Source: Candidatus Sysuiplasma superficiale
GTDB taxonomy: Archaea; Thermoplasmatota; Thermoplasmata; Sysuiplasmatales; Sysuiplasmataceae
NCBI GenBank assembly: GCA_019720975.1
Contig: JAGVSJ010000004.1
Span: 1-64,000 of the forward strand
DNA: 64,000 bases
Direction: 5' to 3'
Below are positions 4,571 to 35,878 of this stretch, one piece after another. Made by a program: the position numbers and the translations under genes. Position 1 is the stretch's first letter; each line of letters opens with the position of its first letter. A model generated the notes under the pieces. It was not told the DNA's origin, did no database searches, and saw only the letters and a program-made list of their open reading frames with translations.

Positions 4571-5212
4571 TTAGATGGATGCCTTCGCTATCTTTGACCA
4601 TCTTTTGTCGATTTCCCTGTCTTCCAGTTTCACGTAGCCCTTCGGGGTGATATTCACCACGACAGCTTTGCCGCCACTGGCGGAATCCCTTTCCATGGAG
4701 GAATGAAGAGCCCTGATTGCGAGATCTGTTGCCTCACTGACTGTGATGCCTGAGTCAAAATGGTCTTCCAGGACACCAAGAGCGAAGGGTGAGCCTGAAC
4801 CGATTGAGACGTATTTATCATCCGTCATTCCGCCCGCAGCATCAAGCCCATAAACGCTGGAACCACCAGAATCGATTCCGCCAATTATCAAACCGACGAA
4901 AAACGGCATGAACCTGTTGGACTGGAGAATATTGGCCGTCAAGGTGGCAGCACCCCGGGCACTCATCGGAGAACCTGTCTTGAGCCGGTGTATTTCAACC
5001 TCAGCCCTCACGTATCTGGCAAGGGCCTGATCGTCGCCTACCAGGCCGGCAGTAGTCATGCCAATGTTGTTGTCGAGCTTGTATATCTTATCGGCATGCT
5101 TGTGGGCAATGAGATTCCCCATTGTCGCCCTTGTTTCAGAAGCCAGGACGGTTCCGTCCTTGCACGCTATACCTATGGTTGTTGTTCCTTTCTTTAATTC
5201 TGAAAGTTCCAT
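4571..5212 (-). CDS. psmB: Proteasome beta subunit precursor
   Basis: Catalytic subunit of the archaeal 20S proteasome. The first nine residues, MELSELKKG, form a short propeptide; autocleavage after Gly9 would expose Thr10 of TTTIGIACKDG as the N-terminal nucleophile. The following segment ETRATMGNLIAHKHADKI is the usual S1-pocket region, and SGSGSPFALG supplies the conserved Ser/Gly loop later on. At 213 residues it has normal length. No alpha subunit gene is adjacent. A TATA-like element at 5241-5250 gives a short leader before ATG 5212. Confidence 0.96.
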   Translation of the reverse strand: MELSELKKGTTTIGIACKDGTVLASETRATMGNLIAHKHADKIYKLDNNIGMTTAGLVGDDQALARYVRAEVEIHRLKTGSPMSARGAATLTANILQSNRFMPFFVGLIIGGIDSGGSSVYGLDAAGGMTDDKYVSIGSGSPFALGVLEDHFDSGITVSEATDLAIRALHSSMERDSASGGKAVVVNITPKGYVKLEDREIDKRWSKIAKASI

Positions 5213-16110: not shown

Positions 16111-16217
16111 CGGGCCTGCCGGGACTTTCAAAACATGATGTTTTTTTGAACCCGGGTCCGGGGCTTTCCACTGGTTAACCGGAGGCCCCTGTGATATCCA
16201 TGCTACACTACAGGCCC
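16111..16217 (-). tRNA. tRNA-Arg(CCG) with two introns (37/38 and 59/60)
   Basis: Minus strand, 5' end at 16217. The acceptor stem GGGCCTG pairs with CAGGCCC (16112-16118), with discriminator G at 16111 and no encoded CCA. The D stem is GTG/CAC. The anticodon stem is GGGGC/GCCCC, with loop CT-CCG-G, then 13 extra bases (16066-16078), then A38. The variable loop is GGAC and the T stem is CCGGG/CCCGG. The T-loop is interrupted by 20 bases. These form a strict bulge-helix-bulge: TTCA pairs with TGAA, AAA and AGT are the three-base bulges, and AAACA/TGTTT with loop TCA is the inner helix. Cutting after the second base of each bulge restores TTCAAAT. The anticodon intron has the same geometry with a mismatch at position 34. 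Confidence 0.9.
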
Positions 16218-16239: not shown

Positions 16240-16251
16240 TGTATAATATAT
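16240..16251 (-). promoter_or_regulatory. TATA-like box of tRNA-Arg(CCG)
   Basis: Reads CATATATTATAC on the minus strand, centred about 28 bases upstream of the tRNA 5' end at 16217. The spacing matches the other tRNA promoter in the window (tRNA-Ile) and supports this locus being an expressed tRNA gene. Confidence 0.65.
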
Positions 16252-34155: not shown

Positions 34156-35784
34156 ATGCCGGTAATAGAAATCAGAAGGGAAGACCTCGTTGGCCTTTCG
34201 GGGCTTGACAGAAGCGACGACTGGTTTGAATCTGTCATTCCCATGATAGGGGCAAGCTATGAAGGTTCAGAAAATGGCAGGCTGAGGTTTGAATTCTTCC
34301 CCAACAGGCCGGATCATTACTCCGTCGAGGGTATTGCAAGATCACTCAGACACCTCTACGCAGGGTCTCCTCCAGAGGATTACGGCGTCGGTTACAGCGG
34401 ACTGATGATTGAGGTAGACAAATCGATAAAGGCAGTTCGACCCGTGATGGTATGCGCGGCTGTGAAGGGCATTCATATGACGCAGGCGCTGATGGAATCC
34501 ATAATTGATTTCCAGGAAAAACTGCATTTGACTGTTGGAAGGAAGAGAAGAAAGGTTTCGATAGGGCTGCATGACCTGGACAGCGTCACTCCGCCTTTCA
34601 GCTACAGAGCCTATCGGCCGGATGAGATCAGTTTCGTTCCGCTCGGCAAGACAGTTGAGATGACTCCGGCCGAAATAGTGAGCGGACATGAAAAGGGAAA
34701 GGAATACGGACACATACTCGGTAGCGGGCCGTATCCTGTCATAACGGACTCCGCAGGCAACGTCCTTTCGATGCCCCCTGTAATTAACGGTAACGTATCT
34801 GCTATCACACTCGATACAGAGAACATTTTCATAGATGTCAGTGGAACGGTGCGGGGAACCTGCGCAGCTGTACTTCGCATACTCTGTGCCGCTCTCGCGG
34901 ACAGGGGCGGCAGGATAGAGTCTGTCAGGATAAGGGAAGGGGATGCGGAATTTGCCGAACCGGATATGGCTTACAGGCCGATGGCCATTGCCAAAGGATA
35001 TGTAAACAGAATGATCGGAGTCGAAATGAAGGCTGAAGAGATACAGCAGCATCTCCTTGGAATGGGTTACAGGGCATCCCTGGCCGGGGATGGCATTACC
35101 GCCTGGATCCCTCCTTACAGGATGGATGTGCTTCATGCGGTGGATATCGTGGAGGACATAGCAATTGCACACGGCTACGACAGGTTTGGAAAGAGGATGC
35201 CGTTCTGTCAGAGTGTCGGCAGCCTTTTACCTGTCACTGAATTCTCAGAGCTTGTATTCGAGGCGATGAACGGTTACGGTTACACCCAGGTACTTACATT
35301 TGTCCTGTCCTCCAGGAAGATGCAAACCGAAATGATGTCCATGGAGGAAGGCGAAACAGTTGTACTGCTGAATCCGGTGAGTGAGGACACTGAGATCCTC
35401 AGGCGTTCGCTGCTGCCCGGACTGATGCGCCTGCTTGAGGCAAACAGGCACAACGAGTTGCCGCAGAAGGTTTATGAAATTGGGGAAGTTCATCTGCCGG
35501 AAAGAAGGAAGCACCTCGCCGGCGTAAGCATCCATCCGAGGGCGACATTCTCGGAGGTGAAATCCGTTGTGGATGCTCTTTCAAGGGATCTCAGACTAGA
35601 TTTGAGATATGAAGAATCGGCAGACAGCAGATTTATATCGGGCAGACAGGCGACGGTCAGCGGCAGATACGGTATCACAGGACATCTTGGTGAAATATAT
35701 CCCGGCACAATAACAAACTTTAATCTTTCAAACCCCGTAGTGGGATTTGAGATTGACATAACAGACATAAAAGTGCTGAGGTAG
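34156..35784 (+). CDS. pheT: Phenylalanyl-tRNA synthetase beta subunit
   Basis: Partner of the alpha subunit in the heterotetrameric enzyme that charges tRNA-Phe; it carries the B3/B4 editing and B5 domains and an inactive catalytic-like core. The archaeal/eukaryal-type N-terminus (MPVIEIRREDLVGL), FFPNRPDHYS and RKVSIGLHDLD are typical, and the length of 542 fits. A box agtttaaaat about 30 bases before ATG 34156 suggests a leaderless message. The stop codon TAG (35782-35784) lies inside the downstream tRNA-Ser gene. pheS is not in this window. Confidence 0.95.
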   Translation: MPVIEIRREDLVGLSGLDRSDDWFESVIPMIGASYEGSENGRLRFEFFPNRPDHYSVEGIARSLRHLYAGSPPEDYGVGYSGLMIEVDKSIKAVRPVMVCAAVKGIHMTQALMESIIDFQEKLHLTVGRKRRKVSIGLHDLDSVTPPFSYRAYRPDEISFVPLGKTVEMTPAEIVSGHEKGKEYGHILGSGPYPVITDSAGNVLSMPPVINGNVSAITLDTENIFIDVSGTVRGTCAAVLRILCAALADRGGRIESVRIREGDAEFAEPDMAYRPMAIAKGYVNRMIGVEMKAEEIQQHLLGMGYRASLAGDGITAWIPPYRMDVLHAVDIVEDIAIAHGYDRFGKRMPFCQSVGSLLPVTEFSELVFEAMNGYGYTQVLTFVLSSRKMQTEMMSMEEGETVVLLNPVSEDTEILRRSLLPGLMRLLEANRHNELPQKVYEIGEVHLPERRKHLAGVSIHPRATFSEVKSVVDALSRDLRLDLRYEESADSRFISGRQATVSGRYGITGHLGEIYPGTITNFNLSNPVVGFEIDITDIKVLR

Positions 35785-35878
35785 CTAAGCCCGGTTCAAG
35801 GCGCCGGCCTTGAGAATAACCTCCGGAAAGCCGGTGTCGCTCTGCGACTCGGGAGTTCAAATCTCCCCCTCAGCGCCA
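35775..35878 (+). tRNA. tRNA-Ser(TGA) with 14-base intron, overlapping pheT
   Basis: Class II tRNA: acceptor GCTGAGG/CCTCAGC, discriminator G, encoded CCA (35876-35878), D arm with short stem GCT/GGC, anticodon stem CCGGC/GCCGG, long variable arm GTCGC-TCT-GCGAC and T arm GGGAG-TTCAAAT-CTCCC. Twenty-one bases separate the anticodon stem halves, so 14 (35815-35828) must be an intron, fitting position 37/38 after CT-TGA-G. A relaxed bulge-helix-bulge can be drawn with bulges AGA and AAA and one mismatch at position 34. The first ten bases coincide with the last codons and stop of pheT. No promoter box is seen at the usual distance, so it is probably processed from the pheT transcript. Confidence 0.92.

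Follow-up and report, generated by a model that had tools for sequence, protein, structure and literature searches.

Whether a tRNA gene that is interrupted within its T-loop can be functional in a member of the Thermoplasmata, and which enzyme would remove such an interruption, is the question raised by a locus in Candidatus Sysuiplasma superficiale. The DNA analyzed is a stretch of 64,000 nucleotides (the window) belonging to contig 35 of a 2.06-Mb MAG. The locus, on the minus strand at 16111-16217, is a tRNA-Arg(CCG) gene into which 13 nt are inserted at 37/38 and 20 nt at 59/60. It is very probably a functional gene whose primary transcript would carry two protein-spliced introns. Its features are the following:

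16111..16217, minus strand: whole tRNA-Arg(CCG) gene, 107 nt with both introns and 74 nt after splicing (ARAGORN on the spliced form)
16179..16217, minus strand: exon 1, tRNA positions 1-37, with the acceptor 5' strand, D-arm and anticodon CCG (sequence reading)
16166..16178, minus strand: intron 1, 13 nt, TTAACCAGTGGAA, canonical 37/38 site, relaxed bulge-helix-loop (central helix CTCC/GTGG, 3/4 pairs)
16145..16165, minus strand: exon 2, positions 38-59, with the anticodon stem 3' strand, variable loop, T-stem 5' strand and TTCAAA
16125..16144, minus strand: intron 2, 20 nt, AAAACATCATGTTTTGAAAG, non-canonical 59/60 site in the T-loop, predicted strict bulge-helix-bulge (BHB)
16111..16124, minus strand: exon 3, with position 60, the T-stem 3' strand, acceptor 3' strand and discriminator G73
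16242..16250, minus strand: TATATTATA, resembling a TATA box and lying about 25-33 nt upstream of where the mature tRNA begins (placed by sequence)

Gene Structure and Detection

Read along the minus strand from 16217 to 16111, with the insertions marked by inner brackets, the gene is GGGCCTG TA GTGTAGCATGGATATCAC A GGGGC CTCCGG [TTAACCAGTGGAA] A GCCCC GGAC CCGGG TTCAAA [AAAACATCATGTTTTGAAAG] T CCCGG CAGGCCC G. ARAGORN calls tRNA-Arg(ccg) solely when both insertions are removed in silico (74 nt), in agreement to the base with a preliminary description which had placed the 13 and 20 bases at these two sites. When both insertions are kept, or the anticodon insertion alone is removed, the program reports nothing; when the T-loop insertion alone is removed, it proposes an incorrect tRNA-Trp that has a spurious intron. 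The unspliced gene has no ARAGORN or Rfam RF00005 match in the window and is missed by RF00005 genome-wide, even at E up to 10, so that the gene could easily drop out of automatic annotation. The box TATATTATA is a putative promoter for the gene, and comparable A/T boxes are seen at about equal upstream distance in the six family relatives.

The preliminary description had named an intact intron-free tRNA-Arg(CCG) elsewhere as grounds for doubt, and none was found in the genome: BLAST with the gene returned one place, and no such copy is among the 49 Rfam tRNA hits. As the MAG is 95% complete with an estimated contamination of 5.6%, an unseen intron-free copy is possible. The rest of the Arg set in the genome includes tRNA-Arg(TCG) and tRNA-Arg(GCG), both ordinary Rfam hits, and searching for hidden Arg tRNAs with a degenerate D-arm pattern yielded no more than background-level hits.

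Splice Motifs of the Two Introns

The 59/60 insertion is predicted to form a BHB in which the T-stem serves as the outer helix and exon positions 54-57 (TTCA) pair with TGAA of the intron in the central helix (4/4 pairs). The bulges are AAA and AGT, divided as AA-A and AG-T, the inner helix is AAACA/TGTTT (5 bp), and excision gives back the T-loop TTCAAAT. The central helix, bulges, inner helix and restored loop had been given in the preliminary description, and all are present. With two 3-nt bulges, a 4-bp central helix and flanking helices, the insertion is by its sequence a strict BHB. The 37/38 insertion has a central helix, CTCC/GTGG, with one C x U mismatch (3/4 pairs) and no inner helix, meaning that intron 1 in the source genome falls short of a strict BHB and is a relaxed bulge-helix-loop at the canonical site. 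The non-canonical intron does have the better motif, as had been claimed. The six relatives in the family show GGAG or GGGG in the 37/38 central helix with 4/4 pairs, and some Arg(CCG) anticodon introns in other genomes are likewise short of central-helix pairs.

In RNAfold, the minimum for the T-arm is -11.6 kcal/mol, a fold that leaves the 4-bp central helix open, compared to -10.0 kcal/mol for the BHB form, which is 1.6 kcal/mol weaker. As the central-helix pairs have a probability of only about 0.3, folding alone is insufficient proof of the BHB.

Conservation of the tRNA-Arg(CCG) Introns

A BLAST search of 150 relatives with the gene gave matches in six further family MAGs, and both introns are carried at identical positions in 6/6 of them, varying in sequence and length (13-15 nt and 16-21 nt, respectively) while the exons are intact. 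This recurrence, together with a motif frequency far above that in shuffled sequences, implies that the insertions are not due to chance. Across the class Thermoplasmata, about 13 families have the 59/60 intron; outside the family of the source genome it is found in f2, f3, f7, f12, f14, f15, f19, f21, f25, f27 and f28, and it is absent in the genomes read from f4, f6, f9, f10, f13, f17, f22, f23 and f24. Sister lineages have a plain TTCGAAT T-loop at the corresponding place. The D-loop of tRNA-Arg(CCG) is also interrupted in f2, f7, f14, f15, f21 and f28, and two genomes, G136 (L238) and G021 (L245), have three introns in this gene (D-loop, 37/38 and T-loop). The preliminary description had considered such introns unusual for a Thermoplasmata-like euryarchaeon; this is not supported for the class, in which the 59/60 intron is widespread and tRNA-Lys(UUU) has the same kind plus a D-loop intron. 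The T-loop intron is unusual relative to the literature and to model genomes such as Thermoplasma and Aciduliprofundum.

The splice helix is retained throughout this variation. Parsed T-loop insertions span 13-34 nt, and a single one is far longer; 42 of 45 distinct tRNA-Arg(CCG) T-loop introns have 4/4 central-helix pairs. Exon position 57 and its intron partner form G:C in 26, A:U in 16 and a mismatch in 3 (n = 45), the A:U form being found in separate families (f1, f14, f15, f28 and two Methanomassiliicoccales), and 0/100000 shuffles, made with no correction for relatedness, match the observed pairing. When Arg and Lys are pooled, 74/78 distinct T-loop introns have the full 4-bp central helix, whereas 2000 runs of intron-letter shuffling, again uncorrected for relatedness, gave 2.6 on average and never more than 8. 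The 59/60 intron is, as judged from these alignments, conserved in position with exon-intron covariation across relatives.

The unusually long insertion, of about 145 nt, is in the tRNA-Arg(CCG) T-loop of one f11 genome (G080, locus L235) and terminates in the usual CGAA motif. Family f20 has the 59/60 intron in 1/3 genomes, all of one genus (G042, not G070 or G077), and tRNA-Lys keeps both of its introns in all three; the Arg(CCG) pattern is read as a recent gain or loss. A phylum-wide BLAST with the spliced consensus gave full-length, intron-free-like matches in other classes, at the level of BLAST only.

Introns in tRNA-Lys(UUU)

A second gene of the source genome has the same kind of interruption. 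The tRNA-Lys(UUU) gene (G000:C11:113-218, minus strand, locus L349) is interrupted by one intron in the D-loop and by another, of 15 nt, at 59/60, and is missed by the Rfam tRNA model; it was located via its anticodon loop, after isotypes lacking from the Rfam list had been checked. A scan of the source genome for T-loop BHB patterns recovered tRNA-Arg(CCG) as the sole tRNA, as the pattern required GTTCRAA and thereby missed the Lys T-loop GTCCGAA. The D-loop and T-loop intron pair of tRNA-Lys(UUU) recurs across the class. Among distinct T-loop introns of tRNA-Lys, 32/33 have 4/4 pairs, with the compensated TCCG/CGGA in the gene's own family as opposed to TTCG/CGAA elsewhere, and all 31 distinct D-loop introns pair 4/4, including the compensating forms TAGG/CCTA, CAGG/CCTG and CCGG/CCGG.

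Intron-free tRNA-Lys is found in one f6 genome and in the presumed Thermoplasma and Aciduliprofundum genomes (G074, G081 and G019, which we take to be Thermoplasma volcanium, T. acidophilum and Aciduliprofundum boonei). The missing introns in Thermoplasma and Aciduliprofundum probably hid the class-wide pattern. Interrupted genes would also account for tRNAs which seem to be missing, as Arg(CCG) and Lys(UUU) do to the Rfam tRNA model in the source genome. An intron-interrupted gene may also be the reason that PMC4153887 reports no tRNA-Lys for Methanomassiliicoccus luminyensis.

Splicing Endonuclease and Proposed Pathway

The source genome has a single EndA gene (G000:C11) encoding one 353-aa chain with two tRNA_int_endo domains. 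Of the types which the preliminary description had listed for inspection, it is neither alpha-beta nor epsilon; the domain arrangement identifies it as the single-chain tandem alpha'2 type, with the predicted Tyr/His/Lys catalytic residues in the second domain. A third PF01974 hit (C46:64177) was discarded, as it scored 13.7 bits, has an internal stop and overlaps other reading frames. The protein aligns along Archaeoglobus alpha'2 EndA with no insertion at the site of the Crenarchaea-specific loop (CSL) grafted in 3p1y. The ASL site is analogous to that of the CSL (PMC12397907), which is the sole basis for judging it in the source EndA. The enzyme thus appears to have none of the marks of broad specificity, with no CSL insertion, no second EndA gene that could supply a beta subunit, and two domains in place of a three-unit chain. 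An EndA match is present in 138/150 relatives, nearly always with two domains and one gene per relative; Thermoplasmatales EndA usually has just one domain above cut-off, and no inserted loop was seen in the aligned EndA of class members. The backbone of an EndA tree (52 sequences) is without resolution, and the tree does not decide between a single ancient gain with losses and repeated gains. An RtcB gene is also present in the source genome (E 4e-171).

With these components, the tRNA would be transcribed from its own TATA promoter, and the EndA homodimer would bind the 59/60 BHB through the T-stem as outer helix and the TTCA/TGAA central helix, cleaving each 3-nt bulge 3' of its second base. 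The same enzyme would also cleave the weaker 37/38 bulge-helix-loop, probably aided by the tRNA body, and ligation of the exons by RtcB would yield a normal 74-nt tRNA reading CGG. Excision and exon ligation are expected to take place in vivo. The weakest step in this proposal is the handling of the relaxed 37/38 intron. Alpha'2 EndA is deemed narrow in substrate, with only the (alpha-beta)2 and epsilon2 enzymes being broad (PMC6379350), and intron 1 is relaxed and holds a C x U mismatch. A precedent which would cover this case is Archaeoglobus alpha'2 EndA, which removes a 37/38 bulge-helix-loop intron from full-length pre-tRNA (PMC6379350).

Alternative Explanations

The locus could instead be a decaying pseudogene whose anticodon loop and T-loop have taken up insertions, with CGG left to tRNA-Arg(TCG), a gene for which exists at C1:225505. 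The scarcity of CGG in the main ORFs of the window (10/3912 codons) would fit with this. Decay would be expected to lose the features that are retained here, however, as the spliced form has every stem intact, six other genomes share both insertions at the same sites, and exon and intron covary, making a pseudogene very improbable. Less probable still is that the T-loop insertion is never spliced and that the mature tRNA has an extended T-loop. The minimum-energy fold, in which the T-stem and inner helix form around an open central loop, would suit such a tRNA, but a retained insertion would cost the T-loop/D-loop contacts, and it would be difficult to see why the splice helix is kept over such a range of lengths or why sister lineages have a plain loop at the equivalent site.

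Another reading accepts splicing of the tRNA, with the T-loop intron removed by an activity other than alpha'2, for example through an unseen second endonuclease subunit. Reviews do call alpha'2 narrow and associate (alpha-beta)2 and epsilon2 enzymes with non-canonical introns. The genome nevertheless has one EndA gene, as do nearly all relatives, and most of the T-loop motifs are strict BHBs, a substrate of all EndA types (PMC8707768); a separate activity is therefore highly unlikely. Splicing of both introns by the alpha'2 enzyme remains the preferred explanation.

Intron Position and Motif in Relation to Known Systems

Non-canonical BHB tRNA introns, including those at the 59/60 site, are already known (PMC4090602). 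The 59/60 introns of Crenarchaeota (Marck & Grosjean 2003 and Sugahara 2008, via PMC4090602) resemble the present one in site, BHB motif, shortness and frequent position beside a canonical intron, but are accompanied by a heterotetrameric EndA with the CSL, whereas the host here is a member of Thermoplasmata with an alpha'2 enzyme and no loop. Several BHB introns per tRNA are also found outside Crenarchaeota in Methanopyrus kandleri, Methanothermobacter and ARMAN-1/2 (PMC4033280); ARMAN has epsilon2 EndA and M. kandleri (alpha-beta)2 (PMC6379350), unlike the alpha'2 type here. Euryarchaeota with alpha4 or alpha2 EndA share the enzyme class and strict BHB with the present case and have single introns at the canonical 37/38, from which it has been inferred that enzyme architecture sets intron position (PMC4090602); Thermoplasmata differ in having as many as three introns in one gene, spread over the D-loop, anticodon loop and T-loop. 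In the permuted tRNAs of Thermofilum pendens and Cyanidioschyzon (PMC3218864) the 59/60 T-loop junction is a splice site as it is here, although the exons of tRNA-Arg(CCG) are in normal order. Thermoplasmata are missing from the lists of PMC4033280 and PMC3218864, and among the open-access papers searched none was found on non-canonical tRNA introns in Thermoplasmata; entries in databases such as GtRNAdb may already contain some of these introns unremarked. Heavily interrupted tRNAs were recently reported in Asgard Atabeyarchaeia and Freyarchaeia (PMC11291895).

It is likely that, in Thermoplasmata broadly, non-canonical and often multiple tRNA introns (Arg-CCG in the D-loop, 37/38 and T-loop; Lys-UUU in the D-loop and T-loop) are excised by a plain alpha'2 EndA without a specificity loop. 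Were this true, the currently accepted tie of intron position to EndA architecture would be wrong, and only the strictness of the motif would depend on the enzyme. Nearly all T-loop and D-loop introns across the class have the full central helix; that non-canonical introns are mostly strict BHB fits with alpha'2 being strict about motif and contradicts its being strict about position. A class with alpha'2 enzymes would thereby separate position tolerance from motif tolerance, two properties formerly merged.

Other Interrupted tRNAs in the Source Genome

Within the window, tRNA-Ser(TGA) at 35775-35875 (plus strand) has an ordinary anticodon-loop intron, and the gene is found by Rfam and missed by ARAGORN. 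Elsewhere in the genome, D-loop insertions resembling strict BHB introns, with the helix AGTG/CACT and the motif judged by eye, are seen in tRNA-Ala(CGC) (G000:C17:9858-9949, plus strand) and tRNA-Thr(GGT) (G000:C68:23067-23171, minus strand). The tRNA-Trp(CCA) gene (G000:C38, around 4950-5130, minus strand, locus L083), which is missed by Rfam, has an anticodon-loop intron of about 100 nt that is probably the known box C/D guide intron. At G000:C32:11994 (plus strand, locus L091), a 22-bp duplicate of the tRNA-Ala(GGC) 3' end stands apart from the gene and resembles the attachment-site scar of an integrated element.
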